This document shows, in pieces, positions 10,714 to 54,980 of a DNA stretch of 64,000 nucleotides (its first letter is position 1; each line of letters begins with the position of its first letter). Origin of the DNA: Streptomyces scopuliridis RB72 (GTDB lineage: Bacteria > Actinomycetota > Actinomycetes > Streptomycetales > Streptomycetaceae); NCBI RefSeq assembly GCF_000718095.1, contig NZ_JOEI01000002.1:372001-436000 (forward strand), read 5' to 3'. Made by a program: the position numbers and the translations under genes. The notes beneath the pieces are model-generated. The model was given only the letters and a program-made list of their open reading frames with translations, searched no databases and was not told where the DNA came from.

Positions 10714-10728
10714 CGGGCGCCACCCGGC

Positions 10729-11538: not shown

Positions 11539-11548
11539 GCCGTCGCGG

Positions 11549-11586
11549 CCGGGCGGGCCCGCCCGACGAAGGGCGGGCCCGCCCGG
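11549..11586. terminator. Bidirectional hairpin between convergent genes
   Basis: A perfect 16-bp G+C stem (11549-11564 with 11571-11586) with a gacgaa loop lies between the peroxidase stop (11538) and the stop of the leftward acyl-CoA dehydrogenase (11599). Confidence 0.78.
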
Positions 11587-11598
11587 CGGTGCGTGGAA

Positions 11599-12828
11599 TC
11601 AGCGGATCGGCACCCCCGACAGCGTGCGGGCGATCACCAGGCGCTGGATCTCGCTCGTCCCTTCGAAGATCGTGTAGATCGCGGCGTCCCGGTGCATCCG
11701 CTCCACCGGGTACTCGCGGGTGAAGCCGTTGCCGCCGAGGATCTGTACGGCCTGCGCGGTGACCTGCTTCGCCGTCTCGCTCGCGTACAGCTTGGACATG
11801 GAGCCCTCGGCCGAGGTGAACGGCTTGCCCGTGGTCGCCATCCAGGAGGCCCGCCACACCAGCAGCCGGGAGGCGTCGATCCGGGTGCGCATATCGGCCA
11901 ACTGGAAGGCTATGCCCTGGTTGTCGATGATCGGGCGGCCGAACTGGCTGCGGGTCTTCGCGTAGTCGAGGGCCACCTCGTACGCCGCGCGCGCGGTGCC
12001 CACCGCCATCGCGCCGACCGCCGGGCGGGAGGCCTCGAAGGTGGCCATGGCCGCGTTCTTCACCCGCTCGCCGCCCGGTGCCTCGGCCCGCTCCCGGGCC
12101 CGCGCCAGCCGTTCGTCGAGCTTCTCCTTGCCGCCGAGCAGGCAGTGGCCCGGGATCCTGACGTCCTCCAGGACCACCTCTGCGGTGTGGGAGGCGCGGA
12201 TGCCGTGCTTCTTGAACTTCTGGCCCTGGGAGAGGCCGGGGGTGCCCGGCGGGACGATGAAGGAGGCGTGGCCCTTGGAGCCCAGCTCGCCGTCGACGAC
12301 GGCGACCACCACATGGACGTTGGCGATCCCGCCGTTGGTCGCCCAGGTCTTGGTGCCGTTGAGCACCCACTCGTCCTTCGCCCCGTCGTACACCGCGCGG
12401 GTGCGCATCGCGCCCACGTCGGAGCCCGCGTCGGGTTCGGAGGAGCAGAAGGCGGCGACCTTCACCTCGTCCGCGTCGCCGTACATCTGCGGAATCCAGG
12501 TGCCGATCTGCTCCTCGGTACCGTTCGCGAGGACGCCGACGGCCGCCAGGCCCGTACCGACGATCGACAGGGCGATGCCCGCGTCACCCCAGAACAGCTC
12601 CTCCATCGCCATCGGGATACCGAGGCCCGTGGGGTCGAAGAACTGCTGGGCGTAGAAGTCCAGGGAGTAGATGCCGACCTTGGCGGCCTCCTGGATGACC
12701 GGCCAAGGTGTCTCCTCACGCTCGTCCCACTCCGCGGCGGCCGGGCGGATGACATCCGCGGCGAAGCCGTGGAGCCAGTCGCGTATCTGCTTCTGGTCGT
12801 CATTGAGATCGAGCGTGAACTCGGCCAT
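11599..12828 (-). CDS. Acyl-CoA dehydrogenase
   Basis: 409 residues. The ATG at 12828 is chosen over one 39 bp upstream because GGAGGGGAC lies directly before it. The three ACAD domains are present: N-terminal helices (FTLDLNDDQKQIRDWLHGF), a beta domain with AAFCSSEPDAGSDVGAM and WVLNGTKTWATNGG (FAD and substrate loop), and C-terminal helices with RSQFGRPIIDNQGIAFQLAD. The catalytic base is the Glu in IYTIFEGTSEIQRLVIAR. It oxidises acyl-CoA to trans-2-enoyl-CoA, passing electrons to ETF. It is divergent from a TetR gene across a two-site operator, so it is probably repressed by that TetR. Chain-length preference cannot be read. Confidence 0.92.
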   Translation of the reverse strand: MAEFTLDLNDDQKQIRDWLHGFAADVIRPAAAEWDEREETPWPVIQEAAKVGIYSLDFYAQQFFDPTGLGIPMAMEELFWGDAGIALSIVGTGLAAVGVLANGTEEQIGTWIPQMYGDADEVKVAAFCSSEPDAGSDVGAMRTRAVYDGAKDEWVLNGTKTWATNGGIANVHVVVAVVDGELGSKGHASFIVPPGTPGLSQGQKFKKHGIRASHTAEVVLEDVRIPGHCLLGGKEKLDERLARARERAEAPGGERVKNAAMATFEASRPAVGAMAVGTARAAYEVALDYAKTRSQFGRPIIDNQGIAFQLADMRTRIDASRLLVWRASWMATTGKPFTSAEGSMSKLYASETAKQVTAQAVQILGGNGFTREYPVERMHRDAAIYTIFEGTSEIQRLVIARTLSGVPIR

Positions 12829-12864
12829 GTCCCCTCCAGCACTGCGCGACTGTTGAACCGTCGC

Positions 12865-12905
12865 CATTGTTACCTACGGTAACCCTAGACTGTTACCCGT
12901 AAGTA
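12865..12905. promoter_or_regulatory. TetR-type double operator between divergent genes
   Basis: A perfect inverted repeat gttacc-tac-ggtaac lies at 12869-12883. A second, weaker copy (gttac-cc-gtaag) lies at 12892-12903, its first base 23 bp after that of the first copy. Both fall between the acyl-CoA dehydrogenase start (12828) and the TetR start (13004). Two adjacent half-overlapping palindromes suggest two TetR dimers. The regulator assignment is inferred from position. Confidence 0.6.
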
Positions 12906-13003
12906 GGAAATGTCAACGGGCCATGGCCTGATCAGCGTCGATGGCGGGCAGGGTGTTACGTTGCCGGGGCGTCAGGCAATCGCAGGGGCGGGGAGACAGA
13001 CCT

Positions 13004-13648
13004 ATGGAGACCACACAGCAGGCCGAGCAGCAGCGGTCGGCGCGGGCGCGGCGGCGCCAGCTCCTGGAGGCCGCGGACCGCGTGGTGCTCAGGGACGGAC
13101 CCCAAGCATCCATGAACGCCATCGCCGCCGAGGCGGGCATCACCAAACCCATTCTCTACCGTCACTTCGGCGACAAGGGCGGGCTCTACCGCGCGCTCGC
13201 CAAGCGCCACACCGACGCGCTGCTGGACGCGCTGCGGACCGCGCTGGACGCCCCCGCCGAGCGGCGCCGGCGCGTCGAGACCACGCTCGACACGTACCTC
13301 GCCGCGATCGAGGCGCGCCCCCAGGTCTACCGGTTCCTGATGCATCCGGCCGAGGACGCGCAACTGCCCGAGCAGGGCTTCGACGTCGGCCGCCACTCCG
13401 CGCCGCTGCTGCGCCGACTCGGCGAGGAACTCGCCAAGGTCATAGAGGAGCGGGTCGACCTCGGCCCCGACAGCGAGCAGCTCTCCCGGGTCTGGGGCCA
13501 TGGCATCGTCGGCATGATGCACGGCGCGGGTGACTGGTGGCTCGGGGAACGGCCCTGTTCGCGGGAGCAGTTGGTGCGCAGCCTGGCGGATCTGCTGTGG
13601 GGGCGGCTGGCCGATGTGAGCGACCGTGCGGGCGGCCCCGGCTTCTGA
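13004..13648 (+). CDS. TetR family regulator, probably of the divergent acyl-CoA dehydrogenase
   Basis: 214 residues from the ATG at 13004. An HTH of the TetR type covers residues about 17-62: RRRQLLEAADRVVLRDG, then ASMNAIAAEAGITKPILYRH and FGDKGGLYRALAKRH. The C-terminal ligand and dimer domain (about 70-200) is not assignable to a ligand class. The divergent position next to an acyl-CoA dehydrogenase, with a palindrome between, suggests a repressor released by acyl-CoA like other actinobacterial fatty-acid TetRs. No GGAGG is evident, only weak purine runs (GGGGCGGGGAGA). Confidence 0.85.
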   Translation: METTQQAEQQRSARARRRQLLEAADRVVLRDGPQASMNAIAAEAGITKPILYRHFGDKGGLYRALAKRHTDALLDALRTALDAPAERRRRVETTLDTYLAAIEARPQVYRFLMHPAEDAQLPEQGFDVGRHSAPLLRRLGEELAKVIEERVDLGPDSEQLSRVWGHGIVGMMHGAGDWWLGERPCSREQLVRSLADLLWGRLADVSDRAGGPGF

Positions 13649-13701
13649 GGGGCCGCGGGAGCGCGCCGCGAGCCACGTAAGCGCCACGCGTGCGCCGGGC
13701 G

Positions 13702-14247
13702 CTACGAGCCGGTGGCCCAGGGCGCCTTGCGCGCGGCCCGCAGCGCCCTGGCACGCCGCCATCCGGAGAGCCGGTCGGGATAGACCAGCCCCTCCAGATG
13801 GTCGCTCTCGTGCTGGAGACAGCGCGCGAAGAACCCCGACCCCTCGATCCGCGCCGGCGCGCCGTCCTGTGTGACGCCCTCCGCCACGGCGTGGTCGTAC
13901 CGCTCCATGCCGGCCTCAAGGCCGGGCAGCGAGAGACAGCCCTCGGGGCCGCGCAGCACGATCCCGTCCGCCTCGGTCAGCCGCGGATTGACGAGGTGTC
14001 CGAGATGGCGGATGTCCTCGTCGTCCGGGCAGTCGAAGACGAACACCCGGAGCGGTACGCCGATCTGGTTGGCGGCGAGCCCGACCCCCCGGGCGGCGTA
14101 CATCGTCGCGAAGAGATCCTCGATCAGTTCCGCGAGCGCGGGACCGAAGTCGGTGACGGGTTCGCAGGGGGTGTGCAGCACGGGATCACCGAGCATTCGC
14201 ATGGCTCGTACTCGCCCGGTGCTGCCGGGGATCGGACGGTTTCGCAT
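13702..14247 (-). CDS. def: Peptide deformylase
   Basis: 181 residues with all three PDF motifs: GVGLAANQIGV (motif 1), GPEGCLSLPGLE (motif 2, with the metal-binding Cys) and QHESDHLEGLVYPDR (motif 3, HExDH with two metal His and the catalytic Glu). It removes the N-formyl group from new proteins at the ribosome using Fe2+ or Zn2+. No clear ribosome site is seen; ATGs at 14247, 14202 and 14196 are possible. The first is used because the N-terminal stretch before MRMLGDPVLHTPC is common in family members. It is divergent from murT. Confidence 0.93.
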   Translation of the reverse strand: MRNRPIPGSTGRVRAMRMLGDPVLHTPCEPVTDFGPALAELIEDLFATMYAARGVGLAANQIGVPLRVFVFDCPDDEDIRHLGHLVNPRLTEADGIVLRGPEGCLSLPGLEAGMERYDHAVAEGVTQDGAPARIEGSGFFARCLQHESDHLEGLVYPDRLSGWRRARALRAARKAPWATGS

Positions 14248-14362
14248 GACGGTCAGGGTACGGTCCGTGGTAACCCCCGCCTTCTGCCCGGTGCCGCGGT
14301 TCGGGCCCCTGGCCGGATCTCGATAGGCTGACCCACGGACCGACGCAAGGAGGATCAAGGCG

Positions 14363-15601
14363 ATGTCAGGCAACACGGACCCGCTGACGCCGCGGGCCAA
14401 GCTGGCCGTGACGGCGGGCAAGGCCGCGGCGGCGGTGTCGCGCGCCGCCGGCCGCGGCAGCGGATCGGTGATCGGCGGGAAGGTCGCGCTCAGACTCGAC
14501 CCCGATCTGCTGGGACGGCTGGCGCAGCATCTCGACGTCATCCTCGTGTCGGCGACCAACGGCAAGACCACCACGACGCGGCTGATCGCCGAGGCGCTGC
14601 GGGCCGCGGGGCCCGTCGTCTCCAACGCGCTCGGCGCCAATATGCCGGCCGGTATCACCTCGGCCCTCGCGGGTGGTTCGGACGCCAAGTACGGCGTGAT
14701 CGAGGTCGACGAGAAGTATCTCGCCGGGGTGGCACGGGACACGACGCCCAAGGCGATCGCCCTGCTCAATCTCTCCCGCGACCAGCTCGACCGCGCCGCG
14801 GAGACCCGGATGCTCGCCGAGAAGTGGCGCGAGGGCCTGGCCGGTACGAAGGCCGTCGTCATCGCCAACGCCGACGACCCGCTGATCGTCTGGGCCGCCT
14901 CTTCCTCACCCAATGTGGTCTGGGTCGCGGCGGGACAGGAGTGGAAGGACGACGCCTGGTCCTGCCCCGCCTGCGGCGGTGTGATGCAGCGCCCCGGCGA
15001 CGACTGGTACTGCGGTGAGTGCGGATTCCGCAGACCGCCGCCGAGCTGGGCGCTGCACGGCGACCATGTCCTCGACCCGCACGGCTCGGCCTGGCCGATC
15101 CACCTCCAGCTGCCCGGCCGCGCGAACAAGGCGAACGCAGCCACCTCCGCCGCCGTCGCGGCGACCTTCGGGGTGCCGCCGCAGGTGGCGCTGGAGCGGA
15201 TGTACCAGGTGCAGGCCGTGGCAGGCCGGTACGACGTGGTGTCGTTCCTCGGCCGCGATCTGCGGCTGCTGCTCGCGAAGAACCCGGCGGGCTGGCTGGA
15301 GACCTTCTCCCTCATCGATCCGCCGCCGACCCCGGTCATCCTCGCCGTCAACGCCCGTGGCGCGGACGGCACGGACACCTCCTGGCTCTGGGACGTCGAC
15401 TACACCCGGCTGAGGGGCCACCCGATCTTCGTCCTCGGGGACCGGAAGCTGGACCTCGCGGTACGCCTCGAAGTCGCCGGTCTCGACTTCCGGGTCTGTG
15501 AGACCCCGGACGAGGCCGTGCAGATGGCGCCGCCCGGACGGATCGAGGCGATCGCCAACTACACCTCGTTCCAGGACCTGCGCCGCCGCGTGGGCAACTG
15601 A
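14363..15601 (+). CDS. murT: Lipid II isoglutaminyl synthase, glutaminase-coupled ligase subunit MurT
   Basis: 412 residues; the ATG at 14363 follows AAGGAGGATC. A Mur ligase central domain has the P-loop VSATNGKTTTTRLIAEAL (near residue 56) and NLSRDQLDR. A zinc ribbon is inserted in it (CPACGGVMQRPGDDWYCGEC, about 203-222), the hallmark of MurT. A DUF1727 C-terminal domain follows. With GatD it amidates the alpha-carboxyl of D-glutamate in lipid II, using glutamine-derived ammonia and ATP at the inner face of the membrane. This is needed for normal 3-3/4-3 cross-linking. gatD follows after 49 bp, giving a two-gene operon. Confidence 0.94.
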   Translation: MSGNTDPLTPRAKLAVTAGKAAAAVSRAAGRGSGSVIGGKVALRLDPDLLGRLAQHLDVILVSATNGKTTTTRLIAEALRAAGPVVSNALGANMPAGITSALAGGSDAKYGVIEVDEKYLAGVARDTTPKAIALLNLSRDQLDRAAETRMLAEKWREGLAGTKAVVIANADDPLIVWAASSSPNVVWVAAGQEWKDDAWSCPACGGVMQRPGDDWYCGECGFRRPPPSWALHGDHVLDPHGSAWPIHLQLPGRANKANAATSAAVAATFGVPPQVALERMYQVQAVAGRYDVVSFLGRDLRLLLAKNPAGWLETFSLIDPPPTPVILAVNARGADGTDTSWLWDVDYTRLRGHPIFVLGDRKLDLAVRLEVAGLDFRVCETPDEAVQMAPPGRIEAIANYTSFQDLRRRVGN

Positions 15602-15650
15602 CCCGGTGCCGGCAAACCTGACCCCTCGGAACCCTGAAGGACGAGCGAGA

Positions 15651-16379
15651 ATGAGCGACAACAGCCTGCGCCTGGTGTGGATCTACCCCGACCTGCTGAG
15701 CACCTACGGGGACCAGGGCAACGCCCTGGTGGTGGAGCGCCGGGCCCACCAGCGCCGTCTGAACGTCACCCGCGTCGATGTACGCAGCGACCAGCCGGTG
15801 CCGACCTCGGGCGACATCTATCTGATCGGCGGCGGTGAGGACCGGCCGCAGCGGCTGGCCGCGGAGCGGCTGCGCCGCGACGGCGGGCTCAGCCGGGCCG
15901 TCTCGAACGGCGCGATCGTGTTCTCGGTCTGCGCCGGCTACCAGATCCTCGGGCACGAGTTCGTCAACGATCTGGGCGAGCGCGAGGCCGGCCTCGGGCT
16001 GCTCGATGTGGTCTCCACCCGTGGTGAGGGCGAGCGGTGTGTCGGTGACGTACTGGCCGACATCGATCCGCAGCTGAACCTGCCGCAGCTGACGGGGTTC
16101 GAGAACCACCAGGGCATCACGCACCTGGGTCCGACGGCCCGGCCGTTCGCGCGGGTACGGCTCGGCGGCGGCAACGGCACGGGCGACGGCACGGAGGGCG
16201 CGTACAACGGGACCGTCTTCGGTACGTACATGCACGGTCCGGTGATGGCCCGCAATCCGCAGATCGCGGACCTGCTGCTGAAGCTGGCCCTCGATGTGAA
16301 CGCGCTGCCGCCGACCGACGACCGCTGGTACGAGGCGCTGCGCGCCGAGCGGGTCGCCGCGGCGACCCAGCCCGCCTGA
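15651..16379 (+). CDS. gatD: Lipid II isoglutaminyl synthase, glutamine amidotransferase subunit GatD
   Basis: 242 residues. A class I (CobB/CobQ-like) glutamine amidotransferase with the catalytic Cys in IVFSVCAGYQILGHEF (about 88-103) and the His in TYMHGPVMARNPQIAD (about 195-210). The N-terminus LVWIYPDLLSTYGDQGNALV is typical of GatD. It supplies ammonia to MurT for amidation of the peptidoglycan stem peptide. It is transcribed with murT and followed by a perfect 23-bp stem terminator. Confidence 0.94.
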   Translation: MSDNSLRLVWIYPDLLSTYGDQGNALVVERRAHQRRLNVTRVDVRSDQPVPTSGDIYLIGGGEDRPQRLAAERLRRDGGLSRAVSNGAIVFSVCAGYQILGHEFVNDLGEREAGLGLLDVVSTRGEGERCVGDVLADIDPQLNLPQLTGFENHQGITHLGPTARPFARVRLGGGNGTGDGTEGAYNGTVFGTYMHGPVMARNPQIADLLLKLALDVNALPPTDDRWYEALRAERVAAATQPA

Positions 16380-16420
16380 CGGACGCCGCTCCGAGGACTG
16401 AGGCCCCCCGCCCCCGGCCC

Positions 16421-16472
16421 AGGGCCTGTCCGGCGGATCTTCGGGCCCGCGAAGATCCGCCGGACAGGCCCT
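16421..16472. terminator. Long perfect hairpin after murT-gatD; member of a repeated palindrome family
   Basis: A 23-bp perfect stem (16421-16443 with 16450-16472) and 6-base loop, about 40 bp after the gatD stop. One arm (agggcctgtccggcggatct and three more bases) recurs in altered form at 19811-19835, so it may be a dispersed palindromic element recruited as terminator. A shorter ggggcctgtcc occurs at about 16496. Confidence 0.7.
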
Positions 16473-16617
16473 AGCCACCGACGAGGCCGCCGGCGGGGCC
16501 TGTCCAGCAGGCGGACGCCGGGTTTCGGTCCCGCCACCGCCCGCCGGTAGGGTGGCGGCGACCTGGCCGGACGATGGGGTCCGGCCGTCGGCCCACGAAG
16601 CGAAGGTATTGCGGGCA

Positions 16618-17643
16618 ATGCGAATTGGTGTGCTCACCTCAGGCGGCGACTGCCCCGGCCTCAACGCCGTGATCAGGTCCGTCGTACACCGCGCCGTCGT
16701 CGACCACGGCGACGAGGTGATCGGGTTCCATGACGGCTGGAAGGGCCTCCTGGAGTGCGACTACCGCAAGCTCGACCTGGACGCCGTCGCCGGCATCCTC
16801 GCCCGCGGCGGCACGATCCTGGGCTCGTCCCGGGTGCAGCCCGCGCATCTGCGGGACGGGGTGGAGCGCGCCCGGGGGCATGTGGCCGACCTGGGTATCG
16901 ACGCGATCATCCCGATCGGCGGCGAGGGCACCCTCAAGGCCGCCCATCTGCTCTCCGAGGCCGGGCTGCCGATCGTCGGCGTACCGAAGACCATCGACAA
17001 CGACATCGCCTCGACCGATGTGACCTTCGGCTTCGACACGGCCGTCGGGGTCGCCACCGAGGCGCTGGACCGGCTGAAGACCACCGCCGAGTCCCACCAG
17101 CGCGTGCTGATCGTCGAGGTCATGGGCCGGCACACCGGCTGGATCGCCCTGCACTCCGGGATGGCCGCGGGCGCCCACGCCATCGTCGTACCCGAGCGGC
17201 CCTTCGACATCGGCGAGTTGACCGAGCTGGTCGGCAAGCGCTTCTCGGCGGGCAAGCGGTTCGCGATCGTGGTGGTCGCGGAGGGCGCGAAGCCGCGCGA
17301 GGGCTCGATGGAGTTCGATGTGGGCGGCAAGGACATCTACGGCCACGAGCGCTTCGCGGGCGTGGCCCGGCAGCTCTCGATCGAACTGGAGGAGCGGCTC
17401 GGCAAGGAGGCCAGGCCGGTGATACTCGGCCATGTCCAGCGCGGTGGCACCCCCACGGCGTACGACCGGGTCCTGGCCACCCGCTTCGGCTGGCACGCCG
17501 TCGAGGCCGCGCACCGCGGCGAGTTCGGGATGCTGACGGCGCTGCGCGGCACGGACATCGTGATGGTGCCGCTGGGCGAGGCCGTCGAGACGCTCAAGAC
17601 GGTGCCCGCCGAGCGGTACGCCGAGGCGGAGTGCGTGCTCTGA
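16618..17643 (+). CDS. pfkA: 6-phosphofructokinase
   Basis: 341 residues from the ATG at 16618, after GCGAAGG. It starts MRIGVLTSGGDCPGLNAVIR (nucleotide-binding loop), then IPIGGEGTLKAAHLL, VPKTIDNDIASTDVTFGF with the catalytic Asp of TIDND, EVMGRHTGWIALHSG and ILGHVQRGGTPTAYDR. It phosphorylates fructose 6-phosphate to fructose 1,6-bisphosphate. GGEGT rather than GGDGS is usual for the actinobacterial ATP-dependent class, although PPi-dependent relatives share much of the motif set. It is monocistronic: a strong hairpin follows. Confidence 0.94.
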   Translation: MRIGVLTSGGDCPGLNAVIRSVVHRAVVDHGDEVIGFHDGWKGLLECDYRKLDLDAVAGILARGGTILGSSRVQPAHLRDGVERARGHVADLGIDAIIPIGGEGTLKAAHLLSEAGLPIVGVPKTIDNDIASTDVTFGFDTAVGVATEALDRLKTTAESHQRVLIVEVMGRHTGWIALHSGMAAGAHAIVVPERPFDIGELTELVGKRFSAGKRFAIVVVAEGAKPREGSMEFDVGGKDIYGHERFAGVARQLSIELEERLGKEARPVILGHVQRGGTPTAYDRVLATRFGWHAVEAAHRGEFGMLTALRGTDIVMVPLGEAVETLKTVPAERYAEAECVL

Positions 17644-17671
17644 ACCGCGAGGAACCGCGGTGATCCACGAG

Positions 17672-17709
17672 GAACCGCCCCCGGTCGCGGCCGCGACCGG
17701 GGGCGGTTC
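17672..17709. terminator. Hairpin terminator after pfkA
   Basis: A perfect 38-bp palindrome (arms 17672-17690 and 17691-17709); the central GCGGCCGC would form the loop. It begins 28 bp after the pfkA stop. Confidence 0.78.
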
Positions 17710-17751
17710 TAGTCTGGTGCGGACAATCGATACGAATCCGGGAGCGGACGG

Positions 17752-18702
17752 ATGGATCACAGCGGGCACGGCATGACCATGGATCTGCCGCCGTTCACGC
17801 TGAGCCGGGCGCTGGAGTTCTCCCCGGACCTCTTCTTCCTCATCGGCTGTGTGCTGGCACTGGTCCTGTACGGCGGGGGCGTCCTGCGGCTGCGGCGGCG
17901 GGGCGACAGCTGGCCGGTGGGCCGCACCGTCGCGTTCGTCCTCGGTGTGCTGACCGTCGCGCTGGTGATGTGCACCAAGCTGAACGACTACGGCATGGTC
18001 ATGTTCAGCGTGCATATGGTCCAGCACATGATCATCAGCATGGTCTCGCCGATCCTGCTGCTGCTCGGCGCGCCGGTCACGCTGGCGCTGCGCGCGCTGC
18101 CGGTCGCTGGGCGGGGCCGCAAGGGCCCGCGCGAGCTGCTGCTGGCCCTGCTGCACAGCCGCTACGTACGGATCGTCACGCACCCCGCCTTCACCATCCC
18201 GCTCTTCATCGCGAGCCTGTACGGGCTGTACTTCACGCCCCTCTTCGACTTCCTGATGGAGTCCAAGACCGGGCACATCGCGATGATGGTGCACTTCCTC
18301 GCGGTCGGCCTGGTGTTCTTCTGGCCGATCATGGGCGTCGACCCGGGCCCGCACCGGCCCGGTTATGTGATGCGGATGCTGGAGCTCTTCGCCGGCATGC
18401 CGTTCCACGCGTTCTTCGGGATCGCGCTGATGATGGCGAGCGAGCCGATGGTCGACGCGTACCGCACCCCCCCGGCCTCGCTCGGGATCGACGCGCTGAG
18501 CGATCAGAACGCGGCGGGCGGTATCGCCTGGGCGTTCAGCGAGATCCCGTCCGTGCTGGTCCTGATCGCGCTGGTCTTCCAGTGGTACCGCTCGGAGCAG
18601 CGGCAGGCGAAGCGCTCGGACCGGGCCGCCGACCGGGACGGTGACAAGGAACTCGCCGCGTACAACGCCTATCTGGCCTCACTCCAGGCCCGGGGGCAGT
18701 AG
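17752..18702 (+). CDS. CtaG/Caa3-type cytochrome c oxidase assembly membrane protein
   Basis: 316 residues, about seven membrane helices. The N-terminus MDHSGHGMTMDL is rich in His and Met, fitting copper binding on the outer face. Conserved segments include MFSVHMVQHMIISMVSPILL, MMVHFLAVGLVFFWPIMGVD, LFAGMPFHAFFGIALMM and a charged cytoplasmic tail. The family (caa3_CtaG) is tied to copper delivery to, or assembly of, haem-copper oxidases. Downstream, a 52-residue membrane protein follows in the same direction. Confidence 0.85.
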   Translation: MDHSGHGMTMDLPPFTLSRALEFSPDLFFLIGCVLALVLYGGGVLRLRRRGDSWPVGRTVAFVLGVLTVALVMCTKLNDYGMVMFSVHMVQHMIISMVSPILLLLGAPVTLALRALPVAGRGRKGPRELLLALLHSRYVRIVTHPAFTIPLFIASLYGLYFTPLFDFLMESKTGHIAMMVHFLAVGLVFFWPIMGVDPGPHRPGYVMRMLELFAGMPFHAFFGIALMMASEPMVDAYRTPPASLGIDALSDQNAAGGIAWAFSEIPSVLVLIALVFQWYRSEQRQAKRSDRAADRDGDKELAAYNAYLASLQARGQ

Positions 18703-18762
18703 CGCGAACCCCTGGTCCCGGGCGACGATGGGCGTCATGGCCCGGCCAGGAGGAGGACGCAC

Positions 18763-18921
18763 ATGTCCGGATCCACCAAGACCATGGGTGTGGTGACCGT
18801 CGGCGCGCTGGTCGTCGTGACGGGCTACACCGCGGCGCTCGGCAGTAACGGCTGGCTGTGGTTCGGCTGGGTGGTGCTGGCGCTGATCACGATCGGTATG
18901 GCCGCCTCGCGGGGGCACTGA
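18763..18921 (+). CDS. 52-residue membrane protein
   Basis: A short open frame with AGGAGGAC 6 bp before the ATG. It encodes MSGSTKTMGVVTVGALVVVT... through a second hydrophobic segment (GWLWFGWVVLALITIGMAA) to a basic RGH end. Two membrane helices joined by a short turn (GYTAALGSNG) are predicted. The coding bias fits its neighbours. It lies 60 bp after the CtaG-like gene and may be co-transcribed. No family recognised; function unknown. Confidence 0.65.
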   Translation: MSGSTKTMGVVTVGALVVVTGYTAALGSNGWLWFGWVVLALITIGMAASRGH

Positions 18922-18931
18922 GGCACGTCGC

Positions 18932-18982
18932 GCAACCCTTGGGTTGCACTATCGAGGGAGCAGTGCAACCATCGAGTTGCAC
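18932..18982. promoter_or_regulatory. Multi-copy GTTGCA operator before the SRPBCC/ArsR genes
   Basis: Four copies of the half-site ggTTGCA/TGCAAcc lie in 51 bp. gcaaccc-tt-gggttgc is at 18932-18947. ggttgcact (18942-18950) pairs with agtgcaacc (18962-18970) across 11 bases, and gtgcaac-catcga-gttgcac is at 18963-18982. It lies just before the SRPBCC gene, whose partner is an ArsR-type repressor, so autoregulation at these sites is the natural reading. Confidence 0.6.
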
Positions 18983-19012
18983 GTTGGTTCCGATCTGCGG
19001 AAGGTTCCCCTC

Positions 19013-19474
19013 ATGTCCACATCAGATGACCGCATCGAACGGGAGATCACCATCGCGGCGCCCAGGGAACGCGTCTGGGCGGTGCTGACAGAACCGGAGC
19101 ATGTCGGGAAGTGGTTCGGCCAGGGGCAGCCCGCCCCGATCGACCTGCGGCCGGGCGGCATCATGCACCTGGACCACGGCCAGTACGGCCAGTTCCCGAC
19201 GACGATCGTGAAGGTCGATCCGCCGCACTACTTCTCGTACCGCTGGGCCAGCGCGTACCCCGGCCAGGTGGCCGAGGAGGGCAACTCGACCCTCGTGGAG
19301 TTCACGCTCACCCCGGAGGGCGACGGAACCAGGCTGCGTGTGGTCGAGACCGGCTTCGCCGATATCGTGATCCCGGAGGACAGGAAGGACGTCGCATCGA
19401 AGGAGAGCCACACGGGTGGCTGGACGGACATGGTCGTCAACATCCGGGATTACGTGGAGCGACTCGACGCATGA
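19013..19474 (+). CDS. SRPBCC (AHSA1/START-like) domain protein
   Basis: 153 residues from the ATG at 19013, which follows GCGGAAGG at a slightly long spacing. The AHSA1 pattern is clear: IEREITIAAPRERVWAVLTE at the N-terminus, WFGQGQPAPIDLRPGG in the middle and the C-terminal helix HTGGWTDMVVNIRDYVERL. The helix-grip fold makes a deep hydrophobic ligand cavity; ligands vary and none can be assigned. It overlaps the ArsR gene by ATGA, a common gene pairing in actinobacteria in which the two are co-regulated. Confidence 0.88.
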   Translation: MSTSDDRIEREITIAAPRERVWAVLTEPEHVGKWFGQGQPAPIDLRPGGIMHLDHGQYGQFPTTIVKVDPPHYFSYRWASAYPGQVAEEGNSTLVEFTLTPEGDGTRLRVVETGFADIVIPEDRKDVASKESHTGGWTDMVVNIRDYVERLDA

Positions 19475-19812
19475 CGGCAGAAGCCGACCGGGACACCGTG
19501 GCGGAGGTCCTGTCCGCGCTGGCGGATCCGACCCGGCGCCGGATACTCGACGCCCTCGCCGCGCACGGCGAGGCGACCGCCACGGTACTGGCCGGGGAAC
19601 TGCCGGTCAGCCGCCAGGCGATCGTCAAACACCTCGCGGTCCTCGACCGGGCCGGTCTGGTCGCCGCGCACCGGGCGGGCCGCGAGGCGCGGTACGTGGT
19701 GCGCCCGGCGCGGCTCAGTGTCACCGCCCGGTGGATGGACCGGGTCGCCGCGGACTGGGACTCCCGGCTCTCGGCGATCAAGCGCCTCGCCGAGGACGCG
19801 TCCGACGCCTAG
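19471..19812 (+). CDS. ArsR family transcriptional regulator
   Basis: 113 residues, a winged helix of the ArsR/SmtB class: ADPTRRRILDALAAHGEATA, then LAGELPVSRQAIVKHLAVLD (recognition helix) and the wing AGREARYVVRP. The metal-binding Cys box ELCVC of true ArsR proteins is absent, so metal sensing is unlikely. It starts inside the stop of the SRPBCC gene and probably represses the pair through the GTTGCA repeats upstream. Confidence 0.88.
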   Translation: MTAEADRDTVAEVLSALADPTRRRILDALAAHGEATATVLAGELPVSRQAIVKHLAVLDRAGLVAAHRAGREARYVVRPARLSVTARWMDRVAADWDSRLSAIKRLAEDASDA

Positions 19813-19947
19813 GTCCTGTCCGGTCGATCTTCGCGGATCAGGCCGCGGCGTCTGGCGCACTACGTTCGCTGCGCTCTCTTCGTCTCGGCGCCTTGATTCC
19901 TCCTTCGGATGCCGAGCGGCGATCGCAAGGCGGAGGGTCTCCCCAGT
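19811..19947. repeat. Dispersed intergenic repeat overlapping the flotillin gene end
   Basis: The segment starts aggtcctgtccggtcgatct and resembles the arm of the hairpin at 16421. It continues through several short imperfect inverted repeats (ggcgc...ggcgcc around 19853-19893; cctcc...ggagg around 19900-19939). It contains the stop codon of the leftward flotillin-like gene (TAG at 19860-19862), so about 28 codons of that gene lie in repeat sequence. From its shape it looks like a Streptomyces intergenic palindromic element; copy number elsewhere cannot be judged here. Confidence 0.55.
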
Positions 19948-21164
19948 ACTGGACGGGATTCGGTGACTCGGAGCGCGGGCTTCCGGTTCACGCTGGGGGT
20001 CGCGCCCGCCGCCTCCTTGGCTCCGTCCGTGGAGCCCTTGAGCGAGTTCAGGATGGCCATGCCCTGGCCCACCAGACCCGCCGCCATGTCGTTGACGCCG
20101 TCGGTGCCGTTCAGGACGGTGAGGTTCGCTCCCGACATGCCCCGGGAAGCCGCGTCGGCCAGCGCCGGCAGGTTCTCCACGATGCGGTTGGCCGCGATGA
20201 GTTCCTGGTTGCCGTCCTTCAGGGAGGCCGCGCGGGCGGTGTTCGCGTCGGCCTGGGCCTGGGCGAGCGCGCGCTCGCTGTACGCGTTGCCGTCCGCCTC
20301 GAACTTCGCCCGGTCACGCGCCGCTTCCGCGAGCGTCCGCTGCCGGTACGCCTCGGCGTCCGCCGGACGCCGGACCTCGGCCTCCAGCCGCTGCGCGGCC
20401 AGTCGCGCCTGACGCTCCGCCAGGGCCGTCTGCTGCTCGATGGTGTCCTGCGAGGACCTGGCCTCGGCCAGCGGTCCCGCCTGCGCGGCGCGCGCCTTGA
20501 CCTGCTCCGTCTCGGCGAGGAAGCCGGCCCGCTTGATCGCGGTGTCCCGTTCGTACTCGGCCTTGAGCGCGGCGGCCTGCTGCTCGCGTTCGGAGGCTTC
20601 CTGGTCCGCCTTGGCCTGGGCGATACGCGCCTGGCTCGCGACGGCGGCGGCGTGCGGGGCCGCCAGGTTGTTGATGTAGCCGGTCGTGTCCTCGATCTCC
20701 TGGATCTGGAGGGCGTCCACGACGATGCCGAGCTTCTCCATCTCGCTGTGGCTGCCCTGCTTGACCTCCTGGGCCACCCGGTCGCGCTCGCGGATGATCT
20801 GCTCCACGGTCAGTCCGCCGACGATGGAGCGCAGGTGGCCTGCGAAGATCCGGCCGACCAGCTCTTCCATGTGTTCCTGTTCCGTCAGGAAGCGCCGGGC
20901 CGCGTTGGCGATCGACACGGCGTCGTCGCCGACCTTGAACACGGATACCGCGCGGACCCTGAGCCGGATGCCCTGCTGGGTCACACAGTCCTCGACGATC
21001 TCCGCCTCCCGCAGCGCGAGTGACAGCATGCGGGCCTTCTGTTTGATGGGCATGACGAAACTGCCGTGCCCGGTGACGATCCGGAACTGTGTGTCCTGTG
21101 CCTGGCGTTTGGAACCGGATATGAGCATCGCCTCGTTGGGCGCGGGAACATGCCAGAACAGCAT
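19860..21164 (-). CDS. Flotillin-like SPFH domain protein
   Basis: 434 residues; the ATG at 21164 follows AGGAG. The SPFH/band-7 domain covers about residues 10-160 (RIVTGHGSFVMPIKQKARML, IANAARRFLTEQEHMEELVG, AGHLRSIVGGLTVEQIIRER). A long Ala/Glu/Arg-rich coiled coil follows (about 180-330), including the flotillin-type EAEVRRPADAEAYRQRTLAEA. Flotillins scaffold membrane microdomains. This one lacks the N-terminal membrane hairpin of B. subtilis YuaG. Its C-terminal tail (about RPVLGRPSALRSPLGIRR to the end) is encoded by a repeat element. It follows an NfeD-like gene, the usual partner. Confidence 0.85.
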   Translation of the reverse strand: MLFWHVPAPNEAMLISGSKRQAQDTQFRIVTGHGSFVMPIKQKARMLSLALREAEIVEDCVTQQGIRLRVRAVSVFKVGDDAVSIANAARRFLTEQEHMEELVGRIFAGHLRSIVGGLTVEQIIRERDRVAQEVKQGSHSEMEKLGIVVDALQIQEIEDTTGYINNLAAPHAAAVASQARIAQAKADQEASEREQQAAALKAEYERDTAIKRAGFLAETEQVKARAAQAGPLAEARSSQDTIEQQTALAERQARLAAQRLEAEVRRPADAEAYRQRTLAEAARDRAKFEADGNAYSERALAQAQADANTARAASLKDGNQELIAANRIVENLPALADAASRGMSGANLTVLNGTDGVNDMAAGLVGQGMAILNSLKGSTDGAKEAAGATPSVNRKPALRVTESRPVLGRPSALRSPLGIRRRNQGAETKRAQRT

Positions 21165-49600: not shown

Positions 49601-50272
49601 TCATTGCCTCGCCATCACCTCGTTCACCAGGTCGAGAGCGAGGTCGCGCGTGTGGTGCACCGGGAGGTGGACATCGGTGTACCACTCCTCGGTGGCCTCG
49701 GGGTGCGGTCCCACGACCCCGACGCGGCCCGCGCCGAACGGTGCGACGAGCGCGGCGACCGTGCCATTGGGGTAGGTGGCCAGGACCGTGGCGTCCGCGC
49801 CGTTGTCGAGGAGGAAGAGGGGTCCGTCCTGGAAGAAGAGGGTGCGTGGCCGGCCGCGCCATCGCACCTCGACCAGTGTGTCGTTGTCGTCGTGGACCGT
49901 TGAGCCGGCCGAGGAGTTGTACTGGTCGGTGTCGCCCGGCAGCAGAGCGAACCCCGGGGTGGCCCCGGCCAGATAGCCGCCGAGGCAGAAGCCCAGATAA
50001 CACCCCCCGCCCCGGACGTACGCACGGACGGCGCCGCGCTGTCGCTCCAGTTGCCGGTAGCCGTGCGACAACGTCCCGCCGCCCGGCTGCGCGTACACCC
50101 GCGCGCGGGCCAACGACTCTGCCGACAGGGGCAGTTCCTCGTCCGGACCGGTGTAGCGGACATCCAGGCCCCAGGGGCCGGCGGCGAGCAGCACGGCCAC
50201 GGCCTCCGGGCAGCCGGGCCTGGCGGCGGGCCCTCGGTAGACGAGGGCCCGGTCCGGTCCGGCGGGTGTCAT
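49601..50272 (-). CDS. BPL_N / class I amidotransferase-like protein coupled to the NRPS
   Basis: 223 residues; its ATG at 50272 overlaps the stop of the NRPS-like gene (ATGA). The fold matches the biotin-protein-ligase N-terminal (BPL_N) class of glutamine-amidotransferase-like proteins: ARVYAQPGGGTLSHGYRQLE, the presumed nucleophile in GGGCYLGFCLGGYLAGATPG, FFQDGPLFLLDNG and the His in GVVGPHPEATEEWY. The C-terminal helix LALDLVNEVMARQ completes it. Reaction unknown. The strict coupling to a Pls-type synthetase suggests it acts on that enzyme's product or supplies or removes an amide. Confidence 0.8.
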   Translation of the reverse strand: MTPAGPDRALVYRGPAARPGCPEAVAVLLAAGPWGLDVRYTGPDEELPLSAESLARARVYAQPGGGTLSHGYRQLERQRGAVRAYVRGGGCYLGFCLGGYLAGATPGFALLPGDTDQYNSSAGSTVHDDNDTLVEVRWRGRPRTLFFQDGPLFLLDNGADATVLATYPNGTVAALVAPFGAGRVGVVGPHPEATEEWYTDVHLPVHHTRDLALDLVNEVMARQ

Positions 50273-53200
50273 GAGCCTCGCGTCCGGGCATCGAAAGCCG
50301 GGATGTCGAAAGCCCGGACATGCGGAGCCGGGGCGTCGCGGGCCGGGGCGTCGCTTTCCGGGGCGTCGCTTTCCGGGACGGGGCGCCTCTCGACAACGCC
50401 TTCGGCGGGGATACCGCGCCAGCTCGTGCCCGGTGTGAGGTGCTCGCCCTTCATCAGCAGCGACAGCGCGCCGAGCTGGACGTCCTCGCCGACGACGGAG
50501 TCGTACAGCACGACCGCGCGGGTGCCGACGCTCGCCCCGTCCTCGACCGTGACCAGCGACATCTTCATGACGCGGTCCTCGAACAGATGCGTTTGCAGCG
50601 ATACGCGCAGACCGACCGCGGCGTTGTCCCCGATGTCCACGAGGTCGAACTCCGTGAGGAAGGTCGTGCCGATCCAGGTGCCTCGTCCGATGCGCGCCCC
50701 GAACCGCCGCAGGATCACCGGCAGATACGGCGTTCCGATCAGGAAGCCCACCCCGGCCGGCACCGCCGCCGCCTCGAAGAGGCCGGTGACGAACTCGGTG
50801 CGGCGTACGAACAGACTCCACAGCGGTTCGACCCGGGGCCGGTAGACCCCGATCACCACCCGCTTGACCGCCGCGCAGTACGAGATCACCATGAGGCTCG
50901 CGATCATCACGAGGACCGGCGCCAGCAGCACGGGCACCAGCAGGCCGGGACGGCGGGTCAGCCAGGACAGCGCCAGCAGATACAGGTACGCGCTCACGGC
51001 CAGCACCGACGCGGGCATCGTGATGCGGAAGAACTCGATGCCCAGGCGTTGGAGTACGGCCCTGCGGGTCGGCCGGAAGGTCAGTTCCTCGGGGAACGAT
51101 CCGCTGCTCTGGCGGACAGGCAGCCGGATCGCGGGCGAGCCCAGCCAGGTGGTGCCGTCGGGTACGTCACCCTGCGGCGGGACCGTACCCACTCCGACCA
51201 GGGACCCTGGTCCGGTGCGCGTTCCGGCGAGCAGGAGCGCGGAGTTGCCGATGAACGCGCGCTCCCCGACCTCGGTGGGGCCGAACGCGACCTGCCCTGC
51301 CGCGAAGGTGGCACCACCGACATTGGCCAGGTCCGCGACGAAGCTGCCGTCGCGGAGGGTGAGCAGGCCCGGGTCGATGTGCGAGACGGTGGAAACCTCG
51401 GCGCCCCGGCCGATCCGCGCGCCGAGCAGCCTGAGCCAGGGCGCGGTGCAGAGGGTGGCGTACAGCGAGTTGGTGAAGGTGAGGCTGATCTCCAGCAGCT
51501 TGTCCGACACCCACTTGCGTACGCCGAGCGAGGAGCGCACCGGATGGATACCGACCGGCACTCTCCGCAGGATCAGCCGCTTGCCCACGGCGACCACACA
51601 GCAGACCGTGACCACGAACACCGGACCGGACAGCGCCGTGGCGACGACGCCGGCCGCGAGGCCCCAGGTCAGCGTCGCCCACCAGAACAGCGCGATCCCC
51701 GGCACAGTCATCGCCACTGCGGCGGTCTCCAGCAGCACCAGTCCGGCGAGCGCGGCGGCGAGATGGCGCGGCCGCCATCCGTCCGTACGACGCTGGGCGC
51801 GCATCATGGCCTCGACGCCGGGGGCGAGCGCGTCCACCGGGCGCGGCGGCGATCCGGCCACGCGCGCGCCGGCGGGAATCGCCTCGTCCTGTCCGATGAC
51901 GGACTGTTCGCCGAGGCCGGCCCCCGCTCCCATGCGTGCGCCGGGTTCGAGGACCGCGTTGGCTCCTACGAAGGCGTGCGGCCCGATCTCGATCGGGGCG
52001 ACCGTCACCCAGCCGTCCGCCACCCGCCACGGACTCACGGAGACGCCGTAGCCGATCGAGGTGTCCCCGCCGACGCGCAGCAGGGCGGGCAGCGTGATCG
52101 TGTGGGTGGCGATGGTGGTACGCGGTCCGATACGCGCGCCGAGCAGCCGTAGATAGGCTGCCATCATGGGCGAACCGCTCAGCACCGGCAGCGGCCCGAA
52201 GCTCAGCAGCAGATGCACCACCCAGAGCCGTATGTAGACCGGGCCCCACAGCGGGTAGCGGCCCGGCCGGATGCCCGCCGACAGCGGGCGCACGAGAGCG
52301 ACCGGTACGAGCCAGCGCACGACCAGATAGCTGAGATACACACCGAGCGTCGTCTGCGCCGACGTCCGGACCGAGATCCGGCCGCCGTGCCGGCTGTACA
52401 CGTACGCCACCGGCAGGCTGAGCACGAGCAGCAGCAGGTAGATCACACCCGCCTGGGCCGCCCCCGCGCCCGCGATACGGCCGTTGGTGTGACGGATCGG
52501 CGCGGGGCGGGGTGGCGCGGACAGCTGCGTCGTGTTCTCCGTGGCGCTCAGCCGGGCCGCGAGACCGCGCACGGTCGGATACGCGTAGAGGTCGCGCAGC
52601 GCGGTGTTCGCGCCGATGTCCCGGCCGCGCAACACCGATACGACCCGGGCCGCAAGCAGCGAGTGGCCCCCGAGGTCGGTGAAGAAATCCGCCTCGGCCG
52701 ACAGCGCCTCGGGCCCGATCCCGAGGACCTCCGCCCAGGCGTCCCGTACCCGCGTCTCCAGCGCGCCTTCGGCCGCGACCAGCCGGCCGCCGCCCACCAG
52801 CCGCCGGCCGGTGGGGGCGGGCAGCCGCTTACGGTCCACCTTGCCGCTGGCCATGGCGGGAAGACCGGGGAGGATGTCCAGGAAGGACGGCACCATGTAC
52901 GCGGGGAGTCTGCGCCACAGGCTTTCGTGCACCCGGGTGATCAGGGTGTCTTCCTCTTCCTCGCGGCCTGGTGCGCGCACCACGTAGGCGCACAGTTCAC
53001 TGCTTCCCCCGCCACCGGCGCGGTCCGGAGGGGGCGTCAGGGCGGTGACCGCCTCGGCCACGCCGGGATCCTCCAGCAGGACGCTGTCGATCTCGCCGAG
53101 ATCCACCCGGTATCCCCGGATCTTCACCTCGTCGTCGGCCCGGCCCAGGAACTCGACCTCGCCGTCCCGGGTTATCCGGCCGAGGTCCCCGGTGCGGTAG

Positions 53201-54363
53201 AGCCGGCTGCCCCGGGGGGCCAGCGGGTGCTCGATGAACCGGTCGGCGGTCAGCTCCGGCCGCCCGACGTAGCCGTCGGCGACGCCGGGGCCCCCGATAC
53301 AGATCTCACCGGTCTCGCCGTCGGCCACGGGCCGGAGTTGTTCGTCGAGCAGCACCACCGAATAGGTCGGCAGCGGTCTTCCGATCGTCACCGCCCTGCC
53401 CGGCGTCAGTTCCGCCCAGGTCGCCGTGACGGTGGCCTCGGTCGGGCCGTACGTGTTGAGCATGCGCCGCCCCGGCCTGCTCCAGCGCTCGACCAGCTGT
53501 CCGGGGCAGGCCTCACCGCCGACGACGATGCTGCGGATGTACGGCAGCTCCGCCGGGATCGTCTCCAGCAGCGTCGGCACGCAGTAGAGCATCGTGATCC
53601 GCCGGCTGTGCAGGAACTCGCCGAGTTCCGCGCCGAGATGACCGGAGCCGTCCGGGCCCGCGACGACCGTGGCGCCGACCGACCAGGTCGGCCAGATCTC
53701 CTCGATGGAGAAGTCGAAGGAGATCGTCATGCCCTGGTACACCCGGTCCTCCGGCCGCACGTCGTAGACCTTGGGCACGACATCGAGGAAGTTGCAGATG
53801 CTCGACTGGGCGACCTTCACCCCCTTGGGCCTGCCGCTCGACCCGGAGGTGTACATAATGTACGCGGCGGGGCGACCGTCCTCGGGGCCGGGCTCGTGCG
53901 GGAGCGGCCGGGTGGTGGGTACGACGGCGAGTTCGCGGCCGTACGAGTCCAGCTCGACCACCCGGCAGGCGAGACCGTCCACAGCCGGCGCGAGAGCGGA
54001 CGTGGTCAGCACCAGATCCACGGCGGCGTCCTCCATGATGAAGGCGAGCCGGTCCGGAGGGGACGCCGGATCGATCGGCACGAACACCGCTCCGGCCTTC
54101 CCCACCCCGAGCAGGGACACATACACCTCCACCGACCGCGGTATCAGGATCGCGACCCGGGCCCCCCGGCCTATCCCGAGACCATGGAGGAAGTGCGCGA
54201 GCTGGTTGGCGCGCGCGTCGAGTTCGGCGTAGGTCAGTGCGTGGTCCGCCCACTCAAGTGCCGTGGCCGACGGGGTACGGTCACAGGCGGCCTCGAAGAC
54301 GGAGTGCAGGCGCCGGCCCGCCCCTCCTGACGGCAGTCCACGCGCGGAGTCGAGCAATCTCAT
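50269..54363 (-). CDS. Pls/PosA-type non-ribosomal peptide synthetase with membrane and LbH domains
   Basis: 1364 residues; GAAGGAAAG precedes the ATG. Adenylation domain, about 15-515: AYIMYTSGSSGRPKGVKV (A3), ISFDFSIEEIW (A4), LNTYGPTEATVTAT (A5), YRTGDLGR (A7), Lys508 in ASGKVDRKRLP (A10). Carrier domain, about 530-605, with Ser568 in FTDLGGHSLL. There is no condensation or thioesterase domain. Instead membrane helices (about 641-657, 674-692, 868-928, 1116-1165) alternate with three left-handed beta-helix regions (about 742-838, 981-1080, 1221-1320). This is the layout of epsilon-poly-L-lysine synthetase Pls. By eye the specificity pocket reads D-F-E-Y-V-G-T-V-T-K; the acidic third position fits a basic amino acid. 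Product unknown. Confidence 0.88.
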   Translation of the reverse strand: MRLLDSARGLPSGGAGRRLHSVFEAACDRTPSATALEWADHALTYAELDARANQLAHFLHGLGIGRGARVAILIPRSVEVYVSLLGVGKAGAVFVPIDPASPPDRLAFIMEDAAVDLVLTTSALAPAVDGLACRVVELDSYGRELAVVPTTRPLPHEPGPEDGRPAAYIMYTSGSSGRPKGVKVAQSSICNFLDVVPKVYDVRPEDRVYQGMTISFDFSIEEIWPTWSVGATVVAGPDGSGHLGAELGEFLHSRRITMLYCVPTLLETIPAELPYIRSIVVGGEACPGQLVERWSRPGRRMLNTYGPTEATVTATWAELTPGRAVTIGRPLPTYSVVLLDEQLRPVADGETGEICIGGPGVADGYVGRPELTADRFIEHPLAPRGSRLYRTGDLGRITRDGEVEFLGRADDEVKIRGYRVDLGEIDSVLLEDPGVAEAVTALTPPPDRAGGGGSSELCAYVVRAPGREEEEDTLITRVHESLWRRLPAYMVPSFLDILPGLPAMASGKVDRKRLPAPTGRRLVGGGRLVAAEGALETRVRDAWAEVLGIGPEALSAEADFFTDLGGHSLLAARVVSVLRGRDIGANTALRDLYAYPTVRGLAARLSATENTTQLSAPPRPAPIRHTNGRIAGAGAAQAGVIYLLLLVLSLPVAYVYSRHGGRISVRTSAQTTLGVYLSYLVVRWLVPVALVRPLSAGIRPGRYPLWGPVYIRLWVVHLLLSFGPLPVLSGSPMMAAYLRLLGARIGPRTTIATHTITLPALLRVGGDTSIGYGVSVSPWRVADGWVTVAPIEIGPHAFVGANAVLEPGARMGAGAGLGEQSVIGQDEAIPAGARVAGSPPRPVDALAPGVEAMMRAQRRTDGWRPRHLAAALAGLVLLETAAVAMTVPGIALFWWATLTWGLAAGVVATALSGPVFVVTVCCVVAVGKRLILRRVPVGIHPVRSSLGVRKWVSDKLLEISLTFTNSLYATLCTAPWLRLLGARIGRGAEVSTVSHIDPGLLTLRDGSFVADLANVGGATFAAGQVAFGPTEVGERAFIGNSALLLAGTRTGPGSLVGVGTVPPQGDVPDGTTWLGSPAIRLPVRQSSGSFPEELTFRPTRRAVLQRLGIEFFRITMPASVLAVSAYLYLLALSWLTRRPGLLVPVLLAPVLVMIASLMVISYCAAVKRVVIGVYRPRVEPLWSLFVRRTEFVTGLFEAAAVPAGVGFLIGTPYLPVILRRFGARIGRGTWIGTTFLTEFDLVDIGDNAAVGLRVSLQTHLFEDRVMKMSLVTVEDGASVGTRAVVLYDSVVGEDVQLGALSLLMKGEHLTPGTSWRGIPAEGVVERRPVPESDAPESDAPARDAPAPHVRAFDIPAFDARTRGS
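50346..50376 (-). repeat. Short tandem repeat in the NRPS C-terminal tail
   Basis: ggggcgtcgctttcc occurs twice in tandem inside the coding end, giving ESDAPESDAP in the protein, followed by related DAP-rich segments. It makes a disordered, acidic tail after the last beta-helix domain; probably slippage-derived. Confidence 0.6.
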
Positions 54364-54584: not shown

Positions 54585-54980
54585 TCAGGTCGGCTGCGAC
54601 CGGCCGAAGAGGAGGTCGTACCCGGGCGGGAGCTGGAGGAGGACCCGGCGCATCAGTTCCTCGCCGGCGGAGTCGGCCACGACGCTCAGAACGGCGCCCA
54701 CGTCCCACTTCGCGGTCTCCTCGTTCGCTCCCTCGATCCACGCTGCGGTGGCCCGGACGAACCGCTCCGGGGTGAGCGGCTCGGCGGCCGGGAGCGGGTC
54801 GAGGAGCACCAGGGCGCAGGATTCCGGCAGCCGGGCGGCCAGTTCGGCCCTCTCGGCCCCGACCACATGGGCGCCCAGCAGCGCCAGCACGACACGGACC
54901 GCCCGTTCGGCTTCCTGCGGCGTGGAGTACTCACCACGCTCCTGGACCGCGGCCAGGAACGCGTCCCACCGCATCACCAT
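54585..54980 (-). CDS. DUF2267 domain protein
   Basis: 131 residues; AGGAGGAGG lies 10 bp before the ATG at 54980. The whole protein is a DUF2267 helical domain: FLAAVQERGEYSTPQEAERA, VRVVLALLGAHVVGAERAEL, AARLPESCALVLLDPLPAAE and FVRATAAWIEGANEETAKWD. The family is widespread in actinobacteria and appears in stress-related contexts; function unknown. Same direction as the NRPS gene, about 220 bp upstream of it. Confidence 0.82.
   Translation of the reverse strand: MVMRWDAFLAAVQERGEYSTPQEAERAVRVVLALLGAHVVGAERAELAARLPESCALVLLDPLPAAEPLTPERFVRATAAWIEGANEETAKWDVGAVLSVVADSAGEELMRRVLLQLPPGYDLLFGRSQPT

Follow-up and report, generated by a model that had tools for sequence, protein, structure and literature searches.

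The Pls/PosA-type enzymes build antimicrobial polymers from small basic amino acids, and here we describe one that is paired with a second gene in Streptomyces scopuliridis RB72, a pairing that recurs in many actinobacteria. The pair lies on the reverse strand of a 64,000-nucleotide stretch of contig NZ_JOEI01000002.1 (positions 372,001 to 436,000; hereafter the window) and consists of a Pls/PosA-family homopoly(amino acid) synthetase of 1364 aa (window positions 50269..54363) and a BPL_N-family class I amidotransferase-fold protein of 223 aa (49601..50272), which we read as a two-gene operon. We propose that the synthetase takes one small diamino acid as its monomer, in the window strain most likely L-2,3-diaminopropionate (Dap), which it activates, loads on its own carrier domain and polymerizes via a membrane-embedded terminal domain to yield an isopeptide-linked cationic homopolymer. 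BPL_N would be a cytosolic cysteine enzyme that most likely serves the synthetase as a glutaminase-type partner. We put the probability of this explanation as a whole, a diamino-acid homopolymer synthetase with an accessory glutaminase-type partner, at approximately 0.4.

The Synthetase and Its BPL_N Partner

The synthetase gene starts with ATG and its product scores above the Pfam cut-offs for AMP-binding (267.8 bits), AMP-binding_C (30.3 bits), PP-binding (49.9 bits) and Hexapep (36.7 bits). In addition, residues 641-1320 match the NCBIfam model TIGR02353 ("Pls/PosA family NRPS", where NRPS stands for nonribosomal peptide synthetase) at 525.1 bits, over its cut-off of 423.1. Adenylation, carrier and NRPS terminal membrane domains are thus found in a single chain, which is the Pls/PosA layout. 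The adenylation domain spans approximately residues 17-517 (52813..54315), with a pocket stretch that best matches the PosA and Pls structures, and is followed by the carrier domain (residues 538-605, 52549..52752) with Ser568 in the motif LGGHSL. The terminal domain (NRPS_term_dom, residues 641-1320, 50404..52443) is considered to be membrane-embedded from TIGR02353 and the eight hydrophobic segments that a crude hydropathy scan placed between residues 629 and 1210. An earlier note on this DNA had recognized in this layout the enzymes that make cationic homopoly(amino acids), and the Pfam domains and TIGR02353 match bear this out; the window synthetase is a Pls/PosA family member and an isopeptide homopolymer is its predicted product. 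The 8.24-Mb genome holds three TIGR02353 matches, of which only this synthetase is over the cut-off. The best-scoring relative is itself a S. scopuliridis protein (100% identity over the terminal domain, 99.0% over the full length).

The BPL_N start codon (ATG, 50272-50270) has two bases in common with the synthetase stop codon (TGA, 50271-50269), creating a four-nucleotide ATGA overlap at 50269..50272 on the reverse strand. The open reading frame (49601..50821) is longer than the gene, which starts at the ATG at 50272. Its product matches PF09825 (BPL_N) at 38.6 bits (cut-off 24.2), a match confined to residues 62-108, and the AlphaFold2 (AF2) model has a mean pLDDT of 95.7 and a pTM of 0.92. 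The nucleophile Cys96 (49985..49987) lies in GFCLGGY and is present in 73 of 74 aligned rows, and the remaining triad residues lie in His190-Pro191-Glu192 (49697..49705) of GPHPEA (His and Glu each in 73/74). The structures that best match the model are glutaminase subunits. Together, model and alignment support a class I (triad) glutamine amidotransferase fold with Cys-His-Glu triad residues. The protein differs from Pdx2/HisH-type class I glutaminases in that no usual synthase partner was seen for it and in its 17-19% identity to them in structural alignments; by sequence, amidotransferases in the PDB are matched weakly (E 0.02 and 0.075), which counts against a glutaminase-type assignment.

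Linkage, Phylogeny, and Accessory Status

The linkage of the two genes was examined in a scan of GTDB species genomes that confirmed 399 relatives, of which the best 80 were taken, chosen by similarity and not at random (loci, genomes and proteins are given our own L, G and P numbers). Three loci (L054, L072, L078) had no usable gene call and were dropped, leaving 78 gene-called loci with the window included. Genes were called with a codon-based caller of our own make, in which start codons are guessed, so that overlaps beyond the window are approximate; it also missed the BPL_N gene of L037. The window pocket type, described below, is found in 64 of the 78 loci. Within six genes of the synthetase, BPL_N is present in 51 of these 64 (50 by gene calls and L037 by tblastn), compared with 1 of the 14 loci with other pockets, three of which end directly after the synthetase. 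In 31 of the 64, BPL_N directly follows the synthetase; the two genes overlap by 4 nt in 16 of these and by 1 nt in three. The earlier note had described BPL_N as coupled to the synthetase by the ATGA overlap and as foreign to the classic poly-lysine locus (pls-pldII); both statements hold, and the neighborhood counts uphold the linkage of BPL_N to this synthetase family. The Pls-PldII pair of S. albulus (PMC9223678, PMC4361855; PDB 7WEW) is similar in having a second gene in a 4-nt overlap with the synthetase gene, but PldII is a metallo-aminopeptidase outside the membrane and Pls, an epsilon-poly-lysine (Lys) synthetase, has a Lys-type pocket. A report of the synthetase/BPL_N pairing was not found among open PMC articles, judged by title or the start of the abstract. 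Stop-to-stop open reading frames of 1412-1604 aa at five loci (L024, L034, L045, L053, L076) had the appearance of synthetase-BPL_N fusions, a candidate that was rejected, with the gene caller giving separate genes and a 4-nt overlap in each.

A quick maximum-likelihood tree of 90 synthetase rows places 66 actinobacterial rows (the 64 same-pocket rows with L038 and L053) on one branch (SH-aLRT 100), 51 of which are labeled BPL_N. An adjoining branch of eight rows (SH-aLRT 100) is linked to Dat, Ask or a DapF-like racemase, and the window lies outside this diaminobutyrate (Dab)-type branch. Two cyanobacterial same-pocket rows fall outside the 66-row branch. The BPL_N label, which was wrongly withheld from L037, requires 11 changes on the tree compared with 29.5 in shuffles, so that BPL_N has been lost or gained several times.

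Several observations weigh against a tight bond between the two genes. Thirteen of the 64 same-pocket loci are without BPL_N (L004, L005, L025, L026, L029, L032, L042, L043, L047, L050, L055, L070, L082), although L026 and L032 end within one and three genes, respectively. Three of them (L004, L005, L029) are the nearest kin of the window; L004, the nearest row, has a 92% identical synthetase, and its DNA matches the window to approximately 100 nt before the synthetase end, with the next match only at window position 43891. This absence in such close kin shows that BPL_N is accessory and would not be needed for polymerization. BPL_N relatives also occur apart from synthetases. A survey of 199 Streptomyces genomes, in which 13 first-look candidates were scored per genome, found them in at least eight, the window's own included, and a further search covered nine other BPL_N-bearing genomes (seven Streptomyces, two of the same order). 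BPL_N directly follows a synthetase 67-74% identical to that of the window in G577 and G561, but four relatives (G413, G430, G586, G589) have no synthetase in the fetched surroundings, one is far from the listed synthetase matches (G552), one is on another contig (G537) and G572 has no match. It is highly improbable, however, that the two genes stand together by chance or through synteny that has no functional meaning: the absence in nearest kin and the orphan copies would suit this view, yet a gene detected in so few Streptomyces genomes stands near the synthetase at most same-pocket loci across many families, frequently with the 4-nt overlap.

The orphan relatives without a synthetase in the fetched surroundings (L144 8451-9101, L145 7875-8768, L146 8893-9651, L147 7960-8775) share 50-59% identity with the nearest linked copy, and those of L146 and L147 adjoin a gene 27% identical to one at Microbispora synthetase loci. 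At Rhodococcus loci (L030, L031, L033, L079) BPL_N is present in three or four copies, and some of these lie upstream of the synthetase.

The Adenylation Pocket and the Monomer

The pocket was read in the register of PosA, the delta-poly-L-ornithine synthetase, as D217, F218, E221, Y260, V280, G282, T304, V312 and T313 (53425..53715, reverse strand) with K508 further on. This confirms the string D-F-E-Y-V-G-T-V-T-K of the earlier note. Pocket position 5 is V280 in this register; the spacing of PheA would place it at V281, and the letter is V in both. Searched against the PDB, residues 205-330 best match PosA (8G95/8G97, E 9.2e-32) without gaps, followed by Pls (7WEW, 2.4e-29), although with the whole adenylation domain other NRPS adenylation domains outscore both PosA (10th) and Pls (17th). 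The equivalents of Asp217 and Glu221 are present in the ungapped alignment, and E221, which corresponds to PosA Glu221, is the acidic residue that the earlier note had thought suited to a basic side chain. The PosA contacts map to D217, F218, E221, T304 and T313 of the window (PMC10522769; PDB 8G95-8G98). D217, E221 and T304 are identical, while PosA has M218, H260, N280 and S313 where the window has F, Y, V and T, and posA is a single-gene operon (PMC10522769). At position 2, Phe is the residue of poly-Dap (PDAP) and poly-Dab (PDAB) synthetases, compared with Met in PosA and Ala in the Lys type (PMC10522769). The window pocket, with F218, therefore carries the Phe of PDAP synthetases, a feature also common to Dab synthetases, and is not of the Lys type.

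In a table of 98 rows (seven without a readable pocket; 10 of 108 sequences were excluded as too short), the window set DFEYxGTVTK accounts for 66 and the Lys-type DAESIGTVVK for 10, and the Dab-type loci have DFECLSAVTK (five), DFECLSVVTK (one) or DFECLSCVSK (two). Position 5 varies within the clade (V, L, M, I, N, F, Y, A) and the 66-row set is unchanged when it is ignored. Among 144 proteins from homology searches, which were picked by likeness to the window clade, DFEYxGTVTK was found in 139 of the 140 fully readable rows and DFEYLGTITK in the other. The strings DFEYVGTVTK, DFECVGAVTK and DAESFGTVVK were not found in the literature text searched. The PDAP, PDAB and poly-beta-Lys synthetases are called hard to tell apart by alignment (PMC10522769). 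The coupled BPL_N gene offers a context rule by which its clade, with the pocket DFEYxGTVTK, is set apart from Dab-type and Lys-type synthetases. Outside the Actinomycetota, pockets DFEYIGTVTK or DFEFIGTVTK were seen in cyanobacterial (L054, L078; Nostocales) and planctomycete (L063; Singulisphaera) synthetases.

We consider that Dap, giving a poly-L-Dap product, has about even odds of being the window monomer. The S. noursei protein P0244 lies in the window clade with the same ten pocket letters and 66.8% identity to the window synthetase, and NCBI files S. albulus, the PDAP producer PD-1 included, under S. noursei. The PDAP synthetase of S. albulus PD-1 (EXU85975; PMC4668381) also resembles the window enzyme in its adenylation-carrier arrangement with a membrane terminal domain and in Phe at position 2; it differs in that no BPL_N gene is mentioned for PD-1 in the excerpted account (PMC4668381), and the window product is a prediction. 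With this Phe (PMC10522769) and the 67%-identical same-pocket S. noursei protein, the suggestion in the earlier note of a new poly(amino acid) at this locus is not upheld. The window genome also encodes SbnA and SbnB, both over the cut-off and adjacent on another contig than the synthetase (G000:C1, L174 1-11052), as expected of a Dap route.

This assignment meets with several objections. The EXU85975 gene is 4,338 bp and P0244 is 1400 aa, with no accession link between the two, and the excerpts of two S. albulus genome papers give no location for the PDAP gene. The window-genome SbnA and SbnB come after an NRPS gene whose product has condensation, adenylation, carrier and thioesterase domains, and may therefore serve another product. 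S. celluloflavus P0137 (74.9% identity) lies in the window clade and this species makes poly-L-Dab, though not necessarily by P0137. Genomes were examined for Dap and Dab routes at 28 of the 80 loci (22 same-pocket and six Dab-type controls): SbnA was over the cut-off in 7/22 same-pocket genomes, Dat in 12/22 and neither in 8/22, compared with Dat in 6/6 and SbnA in 3/6 of the controls. Dap cannot therefore be assumed for the whole clade, and a universal Dap or Dab monomer was rejected on these counts, although some absences may be gaps since the completeness of the 22 genomes is not given. The clade may not be uniform in monomer. The SbnA/SbnB and NRPS stretch (L174 1-11052) is a gene cluster of its own that uses Dap, at another place in the genome.

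Dab may also be available in the window strain because three Dat-family proteins are over the cut-off in its genome, but as the window monomer it is distinctly unlikely. The PldA/PddA-type Dab synthetases (PMC8225329, PMC8117764) belong to the same family, share Phe at position 2 and can have a coupled second gene (pddB with pddA), but their partners are Dat, Ask or a DapF-like racemase, their pockets are different and they form a separate branch. No Dat/Ask gene or DapF-like racemase gene is found beside the window synthetase, its neighbors being BPL_N, a DUF2267 gene and unrelated genes.

Ornithine (Orn) is an unlikely monomer for the window enzyme. A wider version, equally unlikely in our estimate, is that the clade makes delta-poly-L-ornithine or another polymer of an arginine-derived monomer, the window enzyme too, and that the likeness to PDAP synthetases is misleading. 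An arginine-dihydrolase-like gene lies within six genes of the synthetase in 15 of the 64 same-pocket loci and none of the 14 others, including four (L008, L009, L010, L036) of the eight genomes without canonical Dap and Dab routes, and the T304/T313 hydroxyls are as in PosA. The protein of L008 best matches the ArgZ/AgrE structures Sll1336 and Alr4995 (2.7e-31 compared with 2e-8 for DDAH), which we take, partly from their names, to be arginine dihydrolases; it is, however, below the NCBIfam cut-offs for both arginine dihydrolase and dimethylargininase. Furthermore, position 2 is Phe and not Met, and the window synthetase has no dihydrolase-like gene beside it, in a genome with SbnA and SbnB.

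Possible Roles of BPL_N

The release step and chain-length setting of Pls-type synthetase have been called unexplained (PMC4668381), and a conserved, accessory and coupled amidotransferase-fold partner gives this question a gene. In the role that we prefer, BPL_N would supply ammonia on the synthetase, and the chain would thereby be released from the carrier thioester in the form of a carboxamide. The two proteins would form a complex; the ammonia-release chemistry taken on its own is tentative and nearer to unlikely than likely. It fits because BPL_N has a glutaminase-like fold with the triad, is coupled to a synthetase with unexplained release and is repeatedly absent, but a trimming hydrolase would fit equally. 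The suggestion of the earlier note that BPL_N could amidate, trim or cap the chain is compatible with these data. BPL_N may instead be an intracellular hydrolase that acts, like PldII but with a catalytic cysteine, by cutting or trimming the homopolymer or misloaded aminoacyl or peptidyl thioesters. We find this rather unlikely, as M1 peptidases, more obvious counterparts of PldII (HEXXH-18-E in 27/27 members of the M1 clusters), are encoded at 22 of the 50 same-pocket loci where a BPL_N gene was called, and the structures closest to BPL_N are those of glutaminases; the same M1 cluster is also present at three Dab-type loci. The eight M1 N-termini that were inspected resemble signal or lipoprotein peptides.

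The glutaminase-like fold would also suit an enzyme that supplies or recycles nitrogen for the monomer, as a precursor glutaminase that leaves the polymer untouched, and genes coupled to other family synthetases do provide monomer (the PddB racemase with pddA, Dat/Ask at Dab-type loci). No ammonia-accepting synthase was seen among the neighbors scanned, and we regard this role as improbable. A fuller form of the ammonia-release proposal, unlikely as it stands, makes BPL_N the release enzyme of the clade: a docked glutaminase would channel ammonia to the carrier-bound polymer thioester, giving secreted, C-terminally amidated cationic homopolymers, and the products of fuller operons, those with an arginine-dihydrolase-like enzyme, an HGSNAT-like acyltransferase, a second BPL_N and an M1 peptidase, would have another monomer and be further acylated and trimmed. 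If true, such release and tailoring would amount to a class of poly(amino acid)s not yet reported.

Wider Operons and the Window Neighborhood

Beyond the dihydrolase-like gene, other genes recur within six genes of same-pocket synthetases. A HGSNAT_cat membrane protein is found at 41 of the 64 same-pocket loci compared with none of the 14 others, two M1 peptidase clusters at 16 compared with 0 and 8 compared with 3, and a second BPL_N at 17 (by gene calls) compared with 1. The names of these operon members rest on the scanned members that were over the cut-off (HGSNAT_cat 5/5, DDAH_eukar 4/4, Peptidase_M1 4/4). A Dat-cluster aminotransferase lies within six genes at two same-pocket loci (L047 and L082). 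The fuller operons of Micromonosporaceae, Rhodococcus and Geodermatophilaceae are places to look for modified polymers. Of the accessory genes frequent at related loci the window retains BPL_N only.

A DUF2267 gene (54585-54980, Pfam) lies upstream of the window synthetase on the same strand. A counterpart of equal length occupies the same place in L004. The gene is probably not a member of the operon. The other neighbors scanned include acyltransferase and epimerase genes on the opposite strand, alpha/beta hydrolases, an F420-dependent oxidoreductase-like protein and an ABC-transporter match, and apart from BPL_N the scanned neighbors look unrelated to the synthetase.

In Streptomyces pinistramenti (L006, approximately 10001-20564), a synthetase, BPL_N, a second synthetase-like gene (1274 aa) and an M1 peptidase gene are consecutive on one strand. 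Many Streptomyces genomes also contain open frames of approximately 810-1030 aa with a match to the NRPS terminal domain over its full length (approximately 700-890 bits; for example G434:C1:1185238-1187340, G556:C28 and G533:C9). These are too short for a full synthetase and are therefore perhaps separate polymerase-like proteins without an adenylation domain. Hsp70-like genes lie downstream of the operon in Actinomycetospora and Dactylosporangium (L027, L028, L013).

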